This document shows positions 1 through 15,050 of a stretch of 31,172 nt of DNA, piece after piece (within the stretch, counting starts at the first letter, position 1; each line of letters opens with the position of its first letter). The stretch spans positions 1 to 31,172 of the IMG/VR virus record IMGVR_UViG_3300011116_000563, one strand, 5' to 3'. The notes under the pieces were generated by a model. The model was not told where the DNA came from and did no database searches. It saw only the letters and a list, made by a program, of their open reading frames with translations. The position numbers and the translations under genes were made by a program. The DNA comes from a virus.

Positions 1-390
1 TTCTACGACGAACTTACCGATGAAGAAAAGAAAAAGTTCTCAAACTATCTCATGATACGTTGGGGCAGTGCAGTGCAGGGCTCGCGAGAACTGCAAGAGT
101 TTTATGTGATTGCTACCAATGAGCGATTAAACAAAAGATTTTTTGACATCAACCGCCATCCCCGACTGCAATGGCTTACAGCTACCACAGTCAGTCCGGG
201 ATTGGGCGCACAACGACATCCCTGGATTGCTCCTAAAAAGAAAGAAGCTGGTGCCAGCAGCGTCAGAAAACAATTGGCCGAACTGTATCCACACCTCAAA
301 GATGACGAAGTAGAATTGATGAGTCGGATCAACGATAAAAAAGACATTGATGCCTACTTGAAAGCCAGCGGACAAGACGCGAAAAAATGA
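1..390 (+). CDS. Clamp-loader small subunit, gp62-like (5' partial)
   Basis: The reading frame is open from base 1, so the N-terminus lies outside the window; 129 residues are present. The pattern (a TDEEKKKF start, then an aromatic/Arg stretch around MIRWGSAVQG, a YP-rich linker and a C-terminal helix with LKDDEVELMS) resembles the C-terminal half of gp62-type clamp-loader subunits in marine T4-like phages. In T4, gp62 forms a 1:4 complex with the gp44 ATPase and loads the gp45 sliding clamp. The stop overlaps the next start as ATGA, suggesting translational coupling. The family call is from remembered pattern, not a search; a different small replication protein is possible. Confidence 0.6.
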   Translation, partial: FYDELTDEEKKKFSNYLMIRWGSAVQGSRELQEFYVIATNERLNKRFFDINRHPRLQWLTATTVSPGLGAQRHPWIAPKKKEAGASSVRKQLAELYPHLKDDEVELMSRINDKKDIDAYLKASGQDAKK

Positions 391-1061
391 CCTATACTTG
401 TCAGTATTGTCGCAAAAACTTTGTGAGAGAAGCCAGTCTTGCAGTACATTCTTGCGAACCACGACGCCGTCGACAGGAACGAGATGAACCCGGAGTGCGT
501 CTTGGTTTCATGGCCTACCTTAAATTTTATGAACTCACGCAAGGCAGCGCACGATTAAAAACACATGATGACTTTTGTGAAAGCCCCTACTATCGTGCCT
601 TTGTAAAATTTGGTCGCTACTGTGTAGATATTCGTGCAGTTAATCCAGCACGTTTTGTAGAATGGGTATTACGTCAAAACAAAAAGATTGATCACTGGTG
701 TCGAGATACTGTCTATACCGAATACCTAATAGACTATTTGCGTGTAGAAAATGTCAACGATGCCCTGGCTCGTGCCATGGAGTTTTCAATAGACTGGAGT
801 GAGGAGACTGGCAATCCAGCCGAGGATTGCCTGCGTTATGGCAACACTAATGCCATGGTCTATGCTGTGACCGCCGGACGCATCAGTCCTTGGGTCATTT
901 ATAATTGTAAAAACGGGCAAAAGTTTTTATCAGAATTAGACGCCACACAAATAGCCATGGTCTGGCCCTACATTGATTCGGATATATGGATGAAAAAGTT
1001 TGCCGATTACATAGCCGATCAAGAATATGTCAAAGAAATGTTACAGAAAGCAGGTTGGTGA
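387..1061 (+). CDS. Conserved T4-like phage protein with N-terminal zinc finger
   Basis: A 224-residue protein. The N-terminus carries C5-x2-C8-x12-H21-x-C23, a C2HC/C2H2-type zinc-binding knuckle, followed by a very basic stretch (RRRRQ). The rest is helical and aromatic-rich (AYLKFYELTQGSARLKT, YYRAFVKFGRY). Proteins of this pattern recur beside clamp-loader genes in marine T4-like phages but have no assigned function that I know. The finger, the basic patch and the position next to replication genes suggest nucleic-acid binding, which is inference. The start overlaps the stop of the gp62-like gene (ATGA), and its own stop overlaps the next ATG (TGATG). Confidence 0.7.
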   Translation: MTYTCQYCRKNFVREASLAVHSCEPRRRRQERDEPGVRLGFMAYLKFYELTQGSARLKTHDDFCESPYYRAFVKFGRYCVDIRAVNPARFVEWVLRQNKKIDHWCRDTVYTEYLIDYLRVENVNDALARAMEFSIDWSEETGNPAEDCLRYGNTNAMVYAVTAGRISPWVIYNCKNGQKFLSELDATQIAMVWPYIDSDIWMKKFADYIADQEYVKEMLQKAGW

Positions 1062-2041
1062 TGATCTACATTGATTTTATAGCTGGGTCACATGGTAATT
1101 TTTTAGAATTTGTGTGCAATAAATTTTTAGCCAATGTTCCTGGACCAGACACACCATTTAATAGTATGGGCGCATCACATAAAAAAAACTATCGAGGCCA
1201 GACAACTTTTGTTAGTAATCATTTTTTTCAAAAAGATATTGAAATAAAAAAAAGCAAGGTTATCAGTATACAGATTACCACAGACGATTTATTGCCGTTG
1301 GCATCCATAAGTCTTCTACGTGCAGGCGATCTGGACATAGACAACGACACCCTCGAAATAAATACCTATAACAAATTTAACAATCCTAATTACGCCTGGG
1401 TGCTTGAAAATTTAATTCAAAACTTCTTTGATAACCAAATTCAAAACAGTTACAATGTGGTCAAAGATCCAAGCTGGCCAGAAATATTTACTTTAGATCA
1501 ATACCGGGCCTTGCCCCAGTGGATTCAGGATGAATGTTCAAATCAACACAATTTGGAACTGCTAGAACTTTTTGAACATCAACCCAACTGCCCACGGTAT
1601 ATTCTCAGAGAGTTTTTTAAACTGGGATTTAAATATCCTGCTCAATCTGGATTCATGACCGAACAAAATCGTATGCAGTATGATTCCAGCAATCAGGTAC
1701 ATGTGTTTCCCTACAGTTGTTTTTACGATACAAAAAATTTTTTACATGAAATAGAAAAACTCAGCAAGTGGACTGAATTTAAGTTGTCATCGATTGACCA
1801 GTTGAAGGATCTTCATGTACAATTTCTAAGTAAACAACCCTATAAAAATTCTAAAAAATTCTGCGACGGGCTGTTGAAAAGACTAGAGTCTAAGGAGATA
1901 TTTGATTTGCCCAAACTAGATTTGTTCCAAGAAAGTTATGTTAGTGCCAAGTTAGAATTGGCGCTGAACAAAGAATTACCATTGAAAACTTGGTTTGTTA
2001 ACAGTGCTGAAATTTATGAACTTGAAAAAATTACAAGCTGA
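1061..2041 (+). CDS. Hypothetical AT-rich inserted gene, possible remote sulfotransferase/P-loop-like fold
   Basis: A 326-residue protein. I chose ATG 1061 because it overlaps the upstream stop (TGATG); an in-frame ATG at 986 would lie deep in the previous gene. The N-terminus IYIDFIAGSHGNFLEFV looks like a strand, glycine loop and helix; further on, TTFVSNHFF is followed by a hydrophobic strand (KVISIQITTDDLLPLAS). This order (strand-loop-helix, then xH and a strand) is loosely reminiscent of sulfotransferase-like phage proteins, but canonical PAPS motifs are absent and I assign no function. A motif LPQWIQDECSNQHN near residue 150 recurs in the AT-rich methyltransferase between nrdA and nrdB. 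The gene is visibly richer in A/T and poly-A runs than its neighbours, suggesting lateral acquisition. Confidence 0.65.
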   Translation: MIYIDFIAGSHGNFLEFVCNKFLANVPGPDTPFNSMGASHKKNYRGQTTFVSNHFFQKDIEIKKSKVISIQITTDDLLPLASISLLRAGDLDIDNDTLEINTYNKFNNPNYAWVLENLIQNFFDNQIQNSYNVVKDPSWPEIFTLDQYRALPQWIQDECSNQHNLELLELFEHQPNCPRYILREFFKLGFKYPAQSGFMTEQNRMQYDSSNQVHVFPYSCFYDTKNFLHEIEKLSKWTEFKLSSIDQLKDLHVQFLSKQPYKNSKKFCDGLLKRLESKEIFDLPKLDLFQESYVSAKLELALNKELPLKTWFVNSAEIYELEKITS

Positions 2042-2600
2042 CATTGACATTGATCTAGCCAACAGAGATCAAGTCTTGGCATTGATCTCTGCTATTCCGG
2101 CAAGACAAATGCAACAAGATCAAGTTCGCAAGCACAACTCTGGTGTATATGTTACCGGTATACCTTATGATCCCGTGAATAAGTGTGCTGCCATAGACTA
2201 TGAAACTGCAGAAGCCTTGGGTTATTTTAAAATAGATTTATTGAATATGAGTGTGTATCAGTTGATTACCAGCCCAGAACAATATCAACAAGCATTGACA
2301 CAAGATCCGCCATGGACCCGATTATGGACAGATCCAGACTGGGCACAGCAGTTAGCACACATAGGCAATTACAAAGAACTGTTAAACAGCATGCGGCCTG
2401 ATTCAATACCCAGAATGGCTGCCTTTATTTCAATCATACGTCCAGGCAAGGCACATTTGCAAAATCAACCTTGGGAAACTGTGTTTCAATCTGTGTGGGA
2501 CGGCGATGCCAGTCGTGGATTTGTGTTCAAGCGTAGCCATGCGATTTCTTACGCAGCCCTGGTGGCCTTGCACATGAATCTAATCAACTCTACGAACTAG
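2016..2600 (+). CDS. Miniature DnaE (Pol III alpha)-like protein
   Basis: A 194-residue protein. ATG 2016 is preferred over 1995 because MNLKKLQADIDIDL leads straight into the conserved part. Several blocks line up in order with bacterial DNA polymerase III alpha (family C): ADIDIDL (residues 8-14) with the PDIDxDF catalytic block, KHNSGVYV with the HxxGVVI block, GYFKIDLLNM (69-78) with VKFDFLGL, FISIIRPG with the xxALYRPG block and FKRSHAISYA (171-180) with FNKSHSxAYA. All three catalytic Asp positions (D401, D403, D555 of E. coli) therefore have counterparts, D11, D13 and D74. The PHP domain, most of the fingers and the beta-binding region are missing. Similar short proteins recur in marine T4-like phages. 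Whether it polymerises or only binds is unknown. It overlaps the upstream gene by 26 bases and the convergent gene by 21. Confidence 0.7.
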   Translation: MNLKKLQADIDIDLANRDQVLALISAIPARQMQQDQVRKHNSGVYVTGIPYDPVNKCAAIDYETAEALGYFKIDLLNMSVYQLITSPEQYQQALTQDPPWTRLWTDPDWAQQLAHIGNYKELLNSMRPDSIPRMAAFISIIRPGKAHLQNQPWETVFQSVWDGDASRGFVFKRSHAISYAALVALHMNLINSTN

Positions 2601-2957
2601 AGTTATACTTTTCCTTTTTGATTTTTTACGGGCCATTTCCGATAGACTACACACCGGTCCATGCAAGATTTCAAGATCTTTGTTGACAAAAGTCCTGATA
2701 TAGCCACGGAATGGATCCCATTCCGTTTTTAGGAATATGTTAATAGGTATAGAGCGATTTGACTCCCACCACCACACATTGGCCAATTCAAGGAATTTGC
2801 GTTTTTGCTCTAGGTCTTGTATAGCACCAAAATCATAGATCGTGGTGATTGAATCGTCTTGATTTTGTATGATGCCCACATATTCTGTGCTGGCATACAC
2901 GCACAAGGTAATAAATGGGTATTTTTCAGCCAGTCGGGCAAACAAGTCGTGATTCAT
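2580..2957 (-). CDS. Conserved T4-like phage hypothetical protein (minus strand)
   Basis: A 125-residue protein and the only convincing minus-strand gene in the window. It has a compact alpha/beta pattern (FITLCVYASTEYVGIIQN), an aromatic block (VWWWESNRSIPINIF) and a basic C-terminus (ARKKSKRKS). The pattern WWWESNR-x-PINxFLKxEWDxFR is one I associate with a conserved hypothetical protein of marine T4-like phages; no function is known to me. The start lies 9 bases downstream of a late-type box (GGTAAATA on the minus strand), with no clear Shine-Dalgarno. Its 3' end overlaps the 3' end of the DnaE-like gene tail to tail. Confidence 0.75.
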   Translation of the reverse strand: MNHDLFARLAEKYPFITLCVYASTEYVGIIQNQDDSITTIYDFGAIQDLEQKRKFLELANVWWWESNRSIPINIFLKTEWDPFRGYIRTFVNKDLEILHGPVCSLSEMARKKSKRKSITLVRRVD

Positions 2958-3017: not shown

Positions 3018-4181
3018 ATGTATTCCACACAAGCCTACGTGTATCAGCAGATCGCCAGAGTCCTGCTCATGGATACCGGTGCGGGCGAAACATTTATCTA
3101 TAGGTATGATCCTGTGTACGCAAAAAGACTGACCATAAACAAAGGTGTTGACAATGTGTTGTTGTTTGAGTTTATCAATCAGCAAGAAAAGCCGGTCAAC
3201 ATCACCGGTAGCTCATTTATTTTCCGTGTGATCAACACAGAAAGCGACGAGTTATTGATACAAGAACCCATGGTCACGCTGAATGCGGCCACGGGTCGTG
3301 CCAAGGTCACCTTGACCGCAGAACAGTTGTTGGAAGTGTTGGCACAACCTGCCAGTTACTCCATTACCAGAACCAGTGGCAATTTGACTGAAGCTGTGTT
3401 TACCAATGCCCAGGCTGGTGCCCGTGCGCCCCTGGACATTGTGGATTCGGCATTGCCACAGCATGTGCCCAGTTCACCTCTGACCATACCTACCACAAAA
3501 CTTTCTGCACAGTTCAGCGTGGAAGGATCCGGCTATGAAAACTATCCTGCCAGTCCCTACTGGGCTGGTGGAGCAGGAGGACCCGGTGGAGGCTGGAACA
3601 GCTATCTCAATCCACAGTATTTCAGCAGTTTTATTGAACCCAGGAACGCAGTGACCACGGTGCAGATGGATCTGGTGGGCTACACCGGCACCATCAAGTT
3701 CCAGGCCGCTGAAAACTATCAAAGCATATTCTACAATGTCACAGAAAGTGTGACCTATCTCAACAAGACCGGAACTATACACTGGAACGTGATCGGTTGG
3801 TATCCCATAATCCGTGCCTGTTTCAATTCCAGCCTGTTTGCTGTGCCCAACTATCCTACACCCAGTCCAGCTTCGGCCTATGCCATCTGTACCGACGGTG
3901 TGGTCACCAGCATAGTGATGAACAACAACGGCACCGGATATCTGGCCCAGCCACATGTGAACATCGTGGGCACTGGTTCAGGAGCCCGAGCCGAAGCAGT
4001 ATGGAATCCGGCCACCGGCGCGGTAAGTGCCATAAATGTGATCGATGGTGGCAGTGGATATTGGCGTGTGCCCAATGCCATGGTCAGCGGCAGCGGTAGT
4101 CAGTATCCTGTGAGTCCCCAAAATCAAGGTGCGGCCGTGATCATCAGCACCGGCTACATAGAAAATCTCCTGTACCGATAA
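3018..4181 (+). CDS. Virion structural protein, baseplate upper protein-like N-terminus
   Basis: A 387-residue protein. The N-terminal part (about residues 30-140; LTINKGVDNVLLFEF, KPVNITGSSFIFRV) looks like the BppU-type N-terminal domain of phage baseplate/tail proteins and closely resembles a structural protein of T4-like cyanophages. The middle is Gly/Pro/aromatic rich (YWAGGAGGPGGGW). The C-terminus has two copies of a beta motif, NNGTGYLAQPHVNIVGTGSGA and DGGSGYWRVPNAMVSGSGS, typical of repeated phage fibre modules. Expression is expected from the late box 6 bases upstream; no Shine-Dalgarno is visible. Probable role: baseplate-associated virion component; exact position unknown. Confidence 0.75.
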   Translation: MYSTQAYVYQQIARVLLMDTGAGETFIYRYDPVYAKRLTINKGVDNVLLFEFINQQEKPVNITGSSFIFRVINTESDELLIQEPMVTLNAATGRAKVTLTAEQLLEVLAQPASYSITRTSGNLTEAVFTNAQAGARAPLDIVDSALPQHVPSSPLTIPTTKLSAQFSVEGSGYENYPASPYWAGGAGGPGGGWNSYLNPQYFSSFIEPRNAVTTVQMDLVGYTGTIKFQAAENYQSIFYNVTESVTYLNKTGTIHWNVIGWYPIIRACFNSSLFAVPNYPTPSPASAYAICTDGVVTSIVMNNNGTGYLAQPHVNIVGTGSGARAEAVWNPATGAVSAINVIDGGSGYWRVPNAMVSGSGSQYPVSPQNQGAAVIISTGYIENLLYR

Positions 4182-4184
4182 CGA

Positions 4185-4213
4185 TTGATCTTGTCCAAAA
4201 AACATGCTATAAT
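4185..4213 (+). promoter_or_regulatory. Sigma70-type early promoter of the primase-helicase operon
   Basis: TTGATC (4185-4190), a 17-base spacer and a perfect TATAAT (4208-4213). Transcription would be expected to start about 7 bases after the -10, that is at about the A of the primase ATG (4220). Confidence 0.75.
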
Positions 4214-4222
4214 CGTAGCATG
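4203..4222. repeat. Perfect inverted repeat over the -10 box and primase start codon
   Basis: CATGCTA (4203-4209) and TAGCATG (4216-4222) are perfect reverse complements separated by 6 bases. The repeat covers the whole TATAAT and the ATG. It could be an operator or an RNA hairpin hiding the start codon; the function is inference. Confidence 0.6.
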
Positions 4223-5182
4223 ATTGATGTGACTGCTTTCCTGCCAGCCAAAAGAAAACAAACCACTTCGGGCTGGATCAGTTTCAATGCTCCCTGCTGT
4301 GAACACCATGGCGAAAGCCGCGATCGTCGCCAGCGTGGCGGCATCAAACCCAGCACAGATGGATCATGGTCCTACCACTGTTTTAACTGTGGATTCACTG
4401 CCAGTTTTGTACTGGGTCGCACACTGACATTCAAGGCACGTAAGTTATTGAGTTGGATGAATGTGCCCCAAGAAGAAATAGAAAGAGTCAACCTAGAAAG
4501 TCTCCGACAACGTAACATAGAAGGCATACTCAGTGAACGGCAAGAGTTGGTCAACAAGTTACACAGCATTGAGTTTGAAGACCGTGACCTGCCCGCAGAT
4601 ACACAACCTTTGAACGAAACTGCACAACAATATCTCCAGGACCGTTGCATACCTACGGACTATCCATTCCTTTATAAAACCATGCCCAGACCAGGCATAG
4701 TGATTCCATTCACTCATGATGGACAGGTCGTGGGACACACCAATAGATTCCTGGATGATCGCACGCCAAAATACATACAAGATGCTCAGCCCGGTTATGT
4801 GTTTGGCACAGATCTACAACAGGTCGATTGGTCGTCGGTATTGGTCATGGAAGGAGTATTTGATGCCCTGAGCATCAATGGCCTGGCTGTGTTGCATGCC
4901 GATATCAATGATGCCCAGGCCAGACTGATCCGCAGTCTAGGACGTGACGTTGTAGTAGTACCTGACCAGGACGAGCCCGGCATGCGCTTGGTAGATCGTG
5001 CAGTAGAACTTGGCTGGGCAGTAAGCATGCCCGAGTGGCCTGCAGATGTCAAAGATGTCAACGATGCTGTGATTCGTTGGGGAAGATTGGCAACTTTGAT
5101 AACTATCTTGCAGGCCAGAGAAACCAGTCGAATTAAAATAGAACTAAGGAAAAAACAACTTGTTAAAAGATTACGGACTTGA
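4220..5182 (+). CDS. DNA primase, T4 gp61-like
   Basis: A 320-residue protein making RNA primers at the fork. A zinc-binding region lies at residues 26-57 (C26, C27, H29, H30, then C54-x2-C57 in HCFNCGF), followed by a TOPRIM domain with the Glu motif VLVMEGVFDALS (E211, D215) and the DxD motif VVVVPDQDEPG (D249, D251). Order and length fit T4 gp61-type primases of marine phages. It is directly followed, with a 23-base overlap, by the helicase, its partner in the primosome. ATG 4220 is preferred because MIDVTAFLPAKRK is the usual start of the family as I remember it; no Shine-Dalgarno exists and the promoter predicts a leaderless mRNA. Confidence 0.9.
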   Translation: MIDVTAFLPAKRKQTTSGWISFNAPCCEHHGESRDRRQRGGIKPSTDGSWSYHCFNCGFTASFVLGRTLTFKARKLLSWMNVPQEEIERVNLESLRQRNIEGILSERQELVNKLHSIEFEDRDLPADTQPLNETAQQYLQDRCIPTDYPFLYKTMPRPGIVIPFTHDGQVVGHTNRFLDDRTPKYIQDAQPGYVFGTDLQQVDWSSVLVMEGVFDALSINGLAVLHADINDAQARLIRSLGRDVVVVPDQDEPGMRLVDRAVELGWAVSMPEWPADVKDVNDAVIRWGRLATLITILQARETSRIKIELRKKQLVKRLRT

Positions 5183-6572
5183 AGTCCAACGCCTATTCTT
5201 AGAAATGATGTTGCAAGACGCAGAGTCGTATGTGCGTGTGCAGAACATCTACAACCCCGAAAACTTTGATCGTAGTTTGCGACCAGCAGCTGAGTTTATT
5301 GCCCGGCACAGTGACGATCACAAAACTCTACCGACCACAGAACAGATCAGTGCCAGCACAGGCGTAAAACTAAATCATATTCCAGACTTGAACGACGGAC
5401 ACTTTGAGTGGTTCATGGAAGAGTTTGAAAGCTTTACTCGTAGACAAGAACTAGAACGTGCTATCCTAAAATCTGCAGACTTGCTTGAAAAAGGCGAATA
5501 TGATCCTGTGGAAAAACTGATCAAGGATGCGGTACAGATCAGCCTGACCAAGGACATGGGCACAGACTACTGGTTAGACCCCCGAGAGCGTATCAACAAA
5601 TACTTTAACAGCGGTGGACAAGTTTCAACAGGTTGGCCGCAGATGGACAAGATCCTGTATGGCGGATTCAGCAGAGGTGAGTTAAACATATTCGCAGGTG
5701 GGTCGGGATCAGGCAAGAGCTTGGTCATGATGAACATAGCCTTGAGCTGGTTACAAGCAGGACTTAGTGGTGTGTATATCAGTCTAGAACTCAGTGAAGA
5801 ACTGTGTGCGTTGAGAACTGATGCCATGTTGTCAGGCATGAGTACCAAAGAGATCCGCAAGGACATAGACCAAACCGAGCTCAAAGTCAAGCTGGTAAGC
5901 AAAAAAGCCGGACAGTACAGGATCAAGGCCTTGCCGGCACAATCAAACATCAACGATATACGAAGCTATATCAAAGAAGTGCAAGTGCAAACAGGATTGA
6001 AAGTGGACTTTGTCATGTGTGATTACTTGGACTTGCTGATGCCTGTGAGTGCCAAGGTCAGTCCCAATGACCTGTTTGTCAAAGACAAGTATGTGAGTGA
6101 AGAACTGCGTAACTTGGCCAAAGAGCTCAATGTGTTATTTGTGACAGCAAGTCAGTTGAATAGATCGGCCGTGGAAGAGATTGAGTTTGATCACAGTCAT
6201 ATTAGTGGTGGTATTAGTAAGATCAACACAGCCGACAACGTGTTTGGTATCTTTACTAGCAGAGCCATGCGTGAGCGCGGCAAGTATCAGATCCAGTGCA
6301 TGAAGTCGCGTAGTTCAACAGGTGTGGGACAAAAGATCGATCTAGACTACAACATTGAAACCATGCGTATCACAGATTCAGGAGAAGAAGCAGGTCCGGT
6401 CAACGCTTTCAAGAAATCTGATATTTTAAGCAGTATTCGCACACAGAGTCGTGTCGGCTCCAGCACGTTGACACAAGATCCTGACAGTGTTGAAGAAGTA
6501 GACATAGGCAAAATTACTGCCGATGTGCAAAGTGCCAAACTTAAACAGTTGTTGGGAAAAATTAAAACATAA
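5160..6572 (+). CDS. Replicative DNA helicase, T4 gp41-like (DnaB family)
   Basis: A 470-residue protein, close to the length of T4 gp41. Translation probably starts at TTG 5160, 9 bases after AAGGA and inside the primase gene; the sequence LLKDYGLEVQ then matches the usual N-terminus. The RecA-type motor has Walker A GGSGSGKS (residues 180-187) and Walker B VDFVMCDYLDLL (about 282-293), with a glutamate-bearing VYISLELSEE and a VTASQLNR sensor-like motif. It acts as a hexamer unwinding the lagging strand with the gp61-like primase encoded just upstream. The TTG start with a 23-base overlap suggests coupled synthesis of the two proteins. Confidence 0.93.
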   Translation: MLKDYGLEVQRLFLEMMLQDAESYVRVQNIYNPENFDRSLRPAAEFIARHSDDHKTLPTTEQISASTGVKLNHIPDLNDGHFEWFMEEFESFTRRQELERAILKSADLLEKGEYDPVEKLIKDAVQISLTKDMGTDYWLDPRERINKYFNSGGQVSTGWPQMDKILYGGFSRGELNIFAGGSGSGKSLVMMNIALSWLQAGLSGVYISLELSEELCALRTDAMLSGMSTKEIRKDIDQTELKVKLVSKKAGQYRIKALPAQSNINDIRSYIKEVQVQTGLKVDFVMCDYLDLLMPVSAKVSPNDLFVKDKYVSEELRNLAKELNVLFVTASQLNRSAVEEIEFDHSHISGGISKINTADNVFGIFTSRAMRERGKYQIQCMKSRSSTGVGQKIDLDYNIETMRITDSGEEAGPVNAFKKSDILSSIRTQSRVGSSTLTQDPDSVEEVDIGKITADVQSAKLKQLLGKIKT

Positions 6573-7654
6573 TGTTCTGTAAATTCTTACACAATGGACT
6601 GGTATACAATAATGATTCTACACAAATTACAGTGGCACCTTGTTGTTATTACTCAAAAAAATCTACACTTACAGATTTACATTCTGTAGATTATTATAGA
6701 CAACTTTGGATCAAGTCCGATGTCAAAGAGACTTGTCGTGCATGTATTGATCAAGAAAGACAAGGTATTCCTAGTTATCGTCAAGCAAGTTTTGACATGT
6801 CAGAAAATTTATCAGGACAAATTGAAATTCTCACCGTGGCAACAACCAAACAATGTAATTTGGCTTGTGCAAGTTGTGATGCCGGACAAAGCAGTTTTTG
6901 GTATCAAGAAGATTTAAGAAATCAAGTCAATCATTCAGAACAAATACACAATCTACATCGTGAGGATAGACTCAAAGACACAACAAAAAAATTCATTGAT
7001 ATACTAGCCCAACAAAATTTGTCACAATTAAAATACGTGAAGTTTGGAGGTGGCGAACCAATGATGAGCAACATGCATGTTGAAATTTTAAAATTAATTT
7101 CAAACCCTCAAAATGTCACAGTTCAGTATACCACTAATTTTAGTATCATGCCGCGGCAATCGGTGTTTGAACAATGGCAAAAATTTAAACTTGTAAAATG
7201 GGTTGCCAGCCTGGATGGTACCCACGCTCAATTTGATCTATTGAGATGGCCACATACCTGGACAAAATGTACGGACTTTGCCAAACAAGCTCTGGCCACA
7301 GCGCCGCATAATGTTATGTTTGGCGTTGAACATACATTAAATCCTTTGAACATTTATTATTATGATAGATTTCAAGATTGGTTTGACCAACATTTCTCTA
7401 CAAATCGATATGGAGACGCCACTGATCTGAATCTACATCCTTGCATTGGAGTGCTGGCAATTGATCATACTCCCCCCGGAATTCGTGAATTAGTTAAAAT
7501 CAAGTACGGCAGAATGCATTCAATCTCGCTCATGCTTGATGATCATCCTTGGTCCGGGGACACGTTTAAACTGACCACTTATCTTGATCAATTGGACACA
7601 TGGCGGGCTCAAAATTGGCGTCACACATTTTCAGAAGTTGAAAGATATTTTTGA
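6572..7654 (+). CDS. Radical SAM protein with N-terminal twitch-like Fe-S region
   Basis: A 360-residue protein. The canonical radical SAM motif C95-NLA-C99-AS-C102 sits in TTKQCNLACASCDAG and would bind a [4Fe-4S] cluster that cleaves S-adenosylmethionine; GGGEP (149-153) is the usual SAM-contact strand. The N-terminus has extra cysteines (C3, C24, C25, C55, C58; VAPCCYY and CRACIDQE), as in 'twitch domain' radical SAM proteins found in phages and surface-polysaccharide loci. The substrate is unknown. It starts by TAATG overlap with the helicase, is AT-rich like its downstream neighbour and unlike the helicase, and so looks like an inserted cassette carried on the replication operon. Confidence 0.85.
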   Translation: MFCKFLHNGLVYNNDSTQITVAPCCYYSKKSTLTDLHSVDYYRQLWIKSDVKETCRACIDQERQGIPSYRQASFDMSENLSGQIEILTVATTKQCNLACASCDAGQSSFWYQEDLRNQVNHSEQIHNLHREDRLKDTTKKFIDILAQQNLSQLKYVKFGGGEPMMSNMHVEILKLISNPQNVTVQYTTNFSIMPRQSVFEQWQKFKLVKWVASLDGTHAQFDLLRWPHTWTKCTDFAKQALATAPHNVMFGVEHTLNPLNIYYYDRFQDWFDQHFSTNRYGDATDLNLHPCIGVLAIDHTPPGIRELVKIKYGRMHSISLMLDDHPWSGDTFKLTTYLDQLDTWRAQNWRHTFSEVERYF

Positions 7655-8325
7655 AAAATCTTATTTGCTTTCCACATTACACAGCTGGAGGATTATTGTG
7701 TGATATATTAACAGATAGTTTTTCACCAATTAGCCAGAATGGTGGTATCCAGTCGCCTGCACATAGTATTGGAAAGATTGGTGATGCCGATTCAATTCTA
7801 GATCAATTTGATGTTCCTGAATTTTTATCCAAACTAAAGTATGCAAATTTCAACAACAAAACATGCGTTGGAACTCATTGTTGGCCTGGTATCCTGGATG
7901 CCTACCAGTTGGCTGATGCATCTGATCAAATAGTACTCATTACTACCACTACACATCGTAGCAAATTGTATCGATGGCTTCGTGCTTATTACCATTATTA
8001 TGAAAAATCACAACCTTGGCTAGCTGTATCCGGCCCGGCACGCATAGATAAGGAACGTGAAACAGCAAAAAATTACATTCAACCATTTTTGCCAGTTTTT
8101 GCAAAAAACATTATCAATTTGGAATTTGCAGAAATTGTTGATAATTCTCCACAATTTAAAAATCTAGTTAAAAATCATCAACCACATAAGTCTTTTAAAC
8201 GGTGGCAGATGTTGAACAATTTTTTATATCACAAAGATATTTGGAATTCTGTGCCAGTCCAACGTTTTTATGAAGCAGAGCTAGAAATTCATACAAAACA
8301 ATGTTATGTTTATGATGCAATATAG
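7651..8325 (+). CDS. Hypothetical AT-rich protein coupled to the radical SAM gene
   Basis: A 224-residue protein. The start is TTG 7651, overlapping the radical SAM stop (TTGA); no ATG fits. The N-terminus LICFPHYTAGGLLCDIL and the internal TCVGTHCWPG followed by a hydrophobic strand IVLITTTTHRSKLYRWL give the order strand-loop-helix, then THxxP and strand-Arg-helix. That resembles, distantly, the 5'-phosphosulfate and 3'-phosphate regions of sulfotransferases, and also the layout of the AT-rich gene at 1061-2041. The signature residues are too degenerate for a firm call. The tight overlap suggests it works with the radical SAM enzyme. Confidence 0.6.
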   Translation: MKNLICFPHYTAGGLLCDILTDSFSPISQNGGIQSPAHSIGKIGDADSILDQFDVPEFLSKLKYANFNNKTCVGTHCWPGILDAYQLADASDQIVLITTTTHRSKLYRWLRAYYHYYEKSQPWLAVSGPARIDKERETAKNYIQPFLPVFAKNIINLEFAEIVDNSPQFKNLVKNHQPHKSFKRWQMLNNFLYHKDIWNSVPVQRFYEAELEIHTKQCYVYDAI

Positions 8326-8346
8326 AACAAAGCATTATACTTTTCT

Positions 8347-8354
8347 AATAAATA
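8347..8354 (+). promoter_or_regulatory. T4-like late promoter (AATAAATA)
   Basis: AATAAATA matches seven of eight positions of the late consensus. It lies in the 50-base gap after the AT-rich gene pair and 21 bases before the next gene, and would begin the late unit running to about 11345. Confidence 0.6.
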
Positions 8355-8375
8355 ACAAAAAGGTCTTGGCTCAAA

Positions 8376-8624
8376 ATGCAGAAAAAAACAAGAAGTTTAT
8401 TAGAAGAATTAGATGCCATGTACATCCAGCGCGATCAGCGCCATGTGATAGAAACTCGCGCATCCAACGTCATCGCCAGTGCTATCAGACTGCTGGAAGA
8501 AATTGACGAATCTTACCCAGCTGAGCAAGCAGAAAATTTGAAGCGCAAACTGCTCAACGCCATCAACCAGCGTGACCCTGGCAAATTTACCCGCACAGTG
8601 AGGCGCACTGATGCAAATTCATGA
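8376..8624 (+). CDS. Small conserved helical phage protein
   Basis: An 82-residue protein, highly charged and probably all-helical (MQKKTRSLLEELDAM, RASNVIASAIRLLEEIDESY, LKRKLLNAINQRDPGKF). I recognise the RASNxIxxAIxLLExIxESY pattern as a small conserved protein of marine T4-like phages without known function. It is the first gene after a late box and overlaps the next gene by 14 bases, so it belongs with the late, probably head-related, genes. The start at 8376 is preferred over the other-frame ORF beginning at 8306, which is a shadow. Confidence 0.75.
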   Translation: MQKKTRSLLEELDAMYIQRDQRHVIETRASNVIASAIRLLEEIDESYPAEQAENLKRKLLNAINQRDPGKFTRTVRRTDANS

Positions 8625-14657: not shown

Positions 14658-15050
14658 ATGGCCTATTCTGAAAAAGTAATCGATCACTACGAAAATCCCA
14701 GAAACGTGGGCAAAATGGATGTAGGCGACGTCAATGTAGGTACTGGCATGGTAGGTGCGCCGGCCTGCGGTGACGTTATGAAACTGCAAATAAGAGTAGA
14801 AGATGGAATCATACAAGATGCGAAATTCAAGACTTACGGTTGTGGCTCGGCTATTGCGTCGAGTTCGTTGCTCACGGAGTGGGTCAAGGGTAAAACTCTG
14901 GAGCAAGCAGGCAAGATTAAGAACACACAGATTGCAGAAGAACTTGCCCTACCGCCGGTTAAAATCCACTGTTCAATCCTTGCGGAAGATGCTATTAAGG
15001 CTGCCATAGAAGATTACAAGAGAAAACATCTAGATGATACAAGCCACTGA
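14658..15050 (+). CDS. iscU: Fe-S cluster scaffold protein IscU
   Basis: A 130-residue protein with all hallmarks of bacterial IscU, on which [2Fe-2S] and [4Fe-4S] clusters are assembled from IscS-derived sulfur. C37 and D39 (GAPACGDVMKL), C62 (YGCGSAIASSS), H104 and C105 (KIHCSIL) are the cluster ligands, and LPPVK (98-102) is the HscA chaperone recognition motif. Length and sequence are close to E. coli IscU, so it is probably functional and able to use the host's IscS and HscA/HscB. It has its own promoter and overlaps iscA by 17 bases. Acquisition from a proteobacterial host is likely; it counts as an auxiliary metabolic gene. Confidence 0.97.
   Translation: MAYSEKVIDHYENPRNVGKMDVGDVNVGTGMVGAPACGDVMKLQIRVEDGIIQDAKFKTYGCGSAIASSSLLTEWVKGKTLEQAGKIKNTQIAEELALPPVKIHCSILAEDAIKAAIEDYKRKHLDDTSH

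Follow-up and report, generated by a model that had tools for sequence, protein, structure and literature searches.

A metagenomic phage gene for the predicted palm-and-fingers half of a split minimal DNA polymerase III alpha

The protein encoded at positions 2016–2600 of the window (the whole stretch of 31,172 nucleotides analysed here, IMG/VR record IMGVR_UViG_3300011116_000563) is related to DNA polymerase III alpha, as judged from profile comparisons and a predicted fold. By the same evidence it represents the metal-binding palm strands and the fingers of a minimal DNA polymerase III alpha that is split in two. The missing NTP-binding part is a separate gene of about 170 aa with a GRGS motif (phrog_11127), referred to here as the N half; the window gene is the C half. 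We consider it probable (roughly 0.7) that both proteins together form a minimal family C DNA polymerase of large T4-related phages, which would act as an accessory enzyme of low processivity at the replication fork or in repair.

Split minimal Pol III as a kind has been known since 2021, and the window gene adds one member to it. According to the passages of Iyer et al. 2021 (PMC7824862) considered here, jumbo phages of group 2.2 carry a minimal Pol III alpha as two separate proteins, an N-terminal NTP-binding and a C-terminal Mg- and template-binding one, which are encoded far apart and were suggested to work together with the family B polymerase (PolB), either on one strand or during repair. 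The window gene belongs to the same family as this split minimal Pol III of RaK2/Atu_ph07-type phages, where it occurs beside PolB. Beyond the content of these passages, the present analysis adds a metagenomic member and the spread of the family in IMG/VR, the tiling of both halves with a junction at DnaE 393/395, the measured invariance of residues, the near loss of the thumb and a quantitative description of two constant gene neighbourhoods.

Homology and predicted fold of the C half

The gene and its motifs are located in the window as follows.

2016–2600, plus strand: coding sequence of the C half, 194 aa; intact open reading frame of 194 codons with ATG at 2016 and stop at 2600; phrog_11778
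2040–2054, plus strand: DxDxD motif, residues D9–D13; D11 and D13 correspond to DnaE D401 and D403
2229–2237, plus strand: K72-I-D74 motif, corresponding to DnaE K553-F-D555; D74 is the third catalytic aspartate
2439–2450, plus strand: R142-P143-G-K145 motif of the fingers, corresponding to DnaE RPG 639–641
2538–2552, plus strand: H175...Y179 motif of the fingers, corresponding to DnaE KSHxxxY, 760/764

Searched as a single sequence, the C half matched phrog_11778 ('DNA polymerase') with an E-value of 7e-51 (residues 3–191 of 193 onto 3–193 of 197) and also phrog_405, a phage Pol III alpha family, with 1.2e-5. Pfam and NCBIfam searches with the single sequence gave no Pol III match, and by sequence the PDB returned merely weak Pol III matches (E 0.05–0.3). 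Hence, the case for the C half is built on PHROG, on HHalign and on the fold. In the profile–profile comparison, an alignment of 45 C-half sequences was matched by HHalign to eight diverse DnaE/Pol III proteins with a probability of 94.9, an E-value of 4.5e-8 and a score of 67. None of 60 column shuffles exceeded 24.2, and reversing the alignment gave 18.7.

A sequence-only reading of the window had already proposed homology to Pol III alpha, with five DnaE blocks in the right order and counterparts of the three catalytic aspartates. The profile comparison agrees with the homology, and the blocks were recovered by per-block HMMER and HHalign: D11/D13, H40, K72/D74, RPG 142–144 and H175/Y179 are collinear with DnaE. 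HHalign columns pair H40 with H511, K72 with K553, D74 with D555 and RPG 142–144 with 639–641; the equivalences of D11/D13 and H175/Y179 were taken from the per-block HMMER alignments.

Relatives of the C half (137 distinct sequences) diverge down to about 30% identity with their catalytic residues kept. D9, D11, D13, K72 and D74 are each present in 137/137, P50 is unchanged throughout, and H40 and G43 show no variation at any aligned position. Where aligned, R142, P143 and K145 are found in 136 of 136 sequences, H175 in 135 of 135 and Y179 in 134 of 135. The C and N halves have median dN/dS ratios of 0.065 and 0.079, respectively; values around 0.07 indicate strong purifying selection on both.

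An AlphaFold2 model of the C half, built solely from the window and IMG/VR sequences, has a pLDDT of 90.8 and a pTM of 0.83 and was aligned over its whole length (residues 1–194). It superposes on PolC (3f2b, residues 966–1294) with Z 9.8 over 190 residues at 3.4 Å, and on E. coli DnaE (2hnh, range 395–780) with Z 8.2 over 188 residues at 3.9 Å. The best structural matches are all Pol III alpha or PolC, the next unrelated chain following at Z 4.0; thus the predicted palm and fingers have no close rival. A fold unrelated to the Pol beta-like palm, which would have spoken against the sequence-only reading, was therefore not what the prediction gave. In the predicted palm, D11 and D13 are located on strand 10–14 and D74 on strand 73–77, as in Pol III.

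Measured against the features of family C, the chain carries the three palm aspartates (DnaE D401, D403 and D555, here D11, D13 and D74), and its model combines a Pol beta-like palm and the fingers of Pol III. A GS-motif NTP-binding segment is absent from the 194 residues, and the protein is not a single chain of about 900–1200 aa that includes a PHP domain, a thumb and a clamp-binding domain. Only 26 residues separate D13 from H40, compared with about 107 between D403 and H511 of DnaE. We take this span of DnaE to be mostly thumb (domain boundaries as reported by Lamers et al. 2006). Consequently, by sequence comparison the thumb is almost absent from the C half, with about 26 residues left. 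The PHP domain of DnaE and its regions for binding the beta clamp and tau lie beyond the matched range 395–780 and are likewise absent.

The N half and the split point

The N half is known from genome papers. In PMC5259590, CBB_328 (172 aa) and its counterpart in GAP32 were described as a 'truncated DNA polymerase III alpha'; that paper and the one on Atu_ph07 (gp316; PMC6102473) each report one Pol III alpha-like gene. CBB_328 matches phrog_11127 and PF07733 (E 2e-8) and belongs, as its N half, to the same split enzyme as the C half of the window; the C-half gene of CBB initially carried the annotation of a putative membrane protein. The N family was aligned to DnaE by HHalign with a probability of 94.3, and shuffle controls were run. 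A broader profile of the N half (A2) found DnaE in the PDB with an E-value of 7e-5; a further profile (A5) had no match in the PDB at E 0.01. The GxGRGS residues are present in 101/101 N halves, partial ones included.

An AlphaFold2 model of the N half from a 320 kb relative (G001) has a pLDDT of 87.7. Its residues 71–170 align to DnaE 278–393, with Z 9.0 for 2hnh and 11.0 for 5lew. Since the N half falls on 278–393 and the C half on 395–780, both halves tile the palm and fingers of Pol III. In the models, the split point lies at DnaE 393/395, immediately ahead of the D401/D403 strand. The description of the window gene as a miniature of Pol III alpha agrees with the predicted palm and fingers but errs in an essential respect: by sequence and model, the gene represents the C-terminal half of a split enzyme and no complete miniature, the GRGS site being encoded elsewhere. 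Among the fetched loci, none has the two halves adjacent or fused, and a single locus holds both, 33 kb apart.

Compared with bacterial DnaE/PolC, the phage pair has the same palm and fingers fold and the same DxD plus D, RPG and KSHxxxY residues, with GRGS in the partner protein. It differs in comprising about 365 aa in two chains instead of 1160 aa in one, in lacking PHP, clamp-binding and tau-binding domains, and in its thumb of about 26 residues.

A comparable break occurs in Bacteroides phage BS-TP1 (L092), where Pol III is also interrupted just before the DxD strand and encoded by two open reading frames (3825–5555 and 6795–8501). The first comprises PHP and palm up to FLLPERAGL and the second begins at the DxD strand; a Dda-like helicase gene lies between them. 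These halves are much larger than those of the split minimal enzyme and include PHP and HHH domains. Their ends appear intein-like by eye; Pfam gave no intein. By analogy, the BS-TP1 split could show how a permanent split arises.

Gene neighbourhoods and distribution

The C half is located in a conserved block in the order phrog_11058, C half with antisense phrog_11637, then primase and DnaB helicase. The window has the following neighbours.

387–1061, plus strand: upstream neighbour of 224 aa, phrog_11058 (E 7e-54), with a weak C2H2-like zinc-finger start
2580–2957, minus strand: antisense neighbour, phrog_11637 (E 1e-32), overlapping the 3' end of the C-half gene
4220–5182, plus strand: DNA primase with Toprim domain (gp61-like), phrog_47 (E 2.7e-36), PF13155
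5160–6572, plus strand: DnaB-type replicative helicase (gp41-like), phrog_19 (E 2e-71), PF03796 (E 4e-21)

Where the flank was sufficient, 61 of 68 loci have phrog_11058 no more than 2.5 kb upstream of the C half, and 69 of 74 have phrog_11637 at its 3' end. The N half has a second constant neighbourhood: in the 15 genomes with both genes located, it lies on the same strand as the clamp-loader gene gp44, 0.7–4 kb upstream. The window gene had been placed beside a clamp-loader gene in the sequence-only reading. This was an error, since a profile search detected no clamp-loader gene in the 31-kb window and it is the partner N half that adjoins gp44 in relatives. The family of the other clamp-loader protein, phrog_225 (gp62), was matched in XacN1, RAS14 and T4 only; phrog_11058 is a candidate for the clamp-loader small subunit.

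Three further genes of the window are recorded here. A 326-aa open reading frame (1061–2041) separates phrog_11058 from the C half, and only 7 of the loci compared have this insertion. A radical SAM protein (6572–7654; phrog_14086, E 1e-9) directly follows the replicative helicase gene. A 130-aa open reading frame (14658–15050) resembles by eye an IscU/NifU-type iron-sulphur scaffold, which is unusual in a phage.

By tblastn, 65 phage records contain a match to the C half, and in 63 of them the match spans most of the query. The carriers include RaK2, K64-1, 121Q, PBECO4, GAP32, CBB, PA5oct/Paride, Phosso, Atu_ph07 and XacN1, and their genomes are nearly all 280–490 kb in size. In IMG/VR, at least 584 stretches contain a relative of the C half. 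An N-half match was found in 59 of 60 listed C-half phage records, the exception being a partial record of 109 kb. All of the 11 complete phage records examined hold both halves together with PolB, which supports the co-occurrence with a family B polymerase implied by the sequence-only reading. Fourteen IMG/VR contigs with a length of 200 kb or more were chosen by their N half (one of them, G001, was originally found via its C half); a C half is present in 12 of these and PolB in 13. The two contigs without a C half (228 and 262 kb) are possibly fragments. The window, a 31 kb fragment, contains neither an N half nor PolB; therefore, the pairing in this particular phage is deduced from relatives.

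Inactivation of PolB was considered as a reason for a second polymerase and gained no support: 15 of 16 genomes have a PolB with both motif A and motif C intact, and in SCTP-2 motif C was not found by pattern. PolB is divided in two phages: in Paride (L321) into open reading frames of 825 and 379 aa with a 565-aa frame between them, and in Atu_ph07 (L324) into frames of 578 and 418 aa. Two large contigs of related phages have, beside split Pol III and PolB, a further Pol III that is fused, lacks PHP and comprises about 585 aa (L110 1354–3108, equal to G001 45967–47721, and G010 93752–95485). The G010 copy has two in-frame stops, and this gene was not found in 28 other genomes.

Proposed working, alternatives and significance

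From homology, predicted fold, tiling, invariant catalytic residues, co-occurrence and gene neighbourhood we infer that the halves assemble, are active and have a role in the cell, as follows. N and C halves would join without covalent linkage and form one Pol beta-like active site. The GRGS motif of the N half would grip the phosphates of the incoming nucleotide, D11, D13 and D74 of the C half would coordinate two metals, and its fingers would touch template and nucleotide. The assembled pair would then add nucleotides to a primer. Poor processivity is expected, since thumb and clamp-binding part are missing, and an accessory role is likelier than bulk replication. With the PHP, thumb, clamp-binding and tau-binding parts missing and an intact PolB in every complete genome checked, an accessory polymerase is the most likely form of the enzyme; in broader terms, both proteins together most likely make up an active accessory polymerase or nucleotidyltransferase. 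Of the functions named in the sequence-only reading, the minimal nucleotidyltransferase thus survives in a two-protein form. Beside PolB it may serve in primer extension before hand-off, gap filling or repair. The reduction of the thumb from about 107 to 26 residues counts against this best explanation, because DNA binding would weaken. We give even odds to an active, nearly thumb-less family C polymerase of two proteins (about 170 and 190 residues) that shares its forks with PolB. A literature search found no work testing activity, assembly or role of split Pol III.

The pair might instead be an active nucleotidyltransferase with another substrate, tailing DNA ends or RNA, and neither a DNA replicase nor a repair polymerase. 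A Pol beta-like palm is common to many nucleotidyltransferases, the thumb that holds the primer-template is almost gone and PolB is intact; against it, the fingers residues for template-directed synthesis (RPG, H, Y) are kept and both genes lie within replication gene clusters, so that we regard this as unlikely. Less probable still is an inactive structural relic that merely scaffolds the phage replisome. The small size, the loss of the thumb and the presence of PolB would fit a relic, but 137 sequences with invariant catalytic residues, the strong purifying selection and the GRGS site kept by the partner conflict with it. The C half resembles the core of the host enzyme and phages often interfere with host replication, but a decoy that binds clamp, tau or epsilon of the host Pol III to block its replication is very improbable, because the DnaE parts that bind these partners lie outside 395–780 and are absent, as are PHP and thumb, and a decoy would need neither invariant catalytic aspartates nor a partner gene with the missing NTP site.

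If the halves of the proposed split polymerase form a working enzyme, the catalytic core of Pol III would be reducible to about 365 residues, splittable through its active-site domain and able to run beside a family B polymerase. Were the active two-protein reading true, it would be, to our knowledge, the smallest Pol III catalytic module known, and these phages would have a replisome of two polymerase families with a break inside an active-site domain. This is directly testable, because the two proteins are small, are conserved across hundreds of phages and occur in cultured phages that infect laboratory E. coli. The answer would bear on the minimal replicative core of bacteria and on how one replisome can be shared by two polymerase families.
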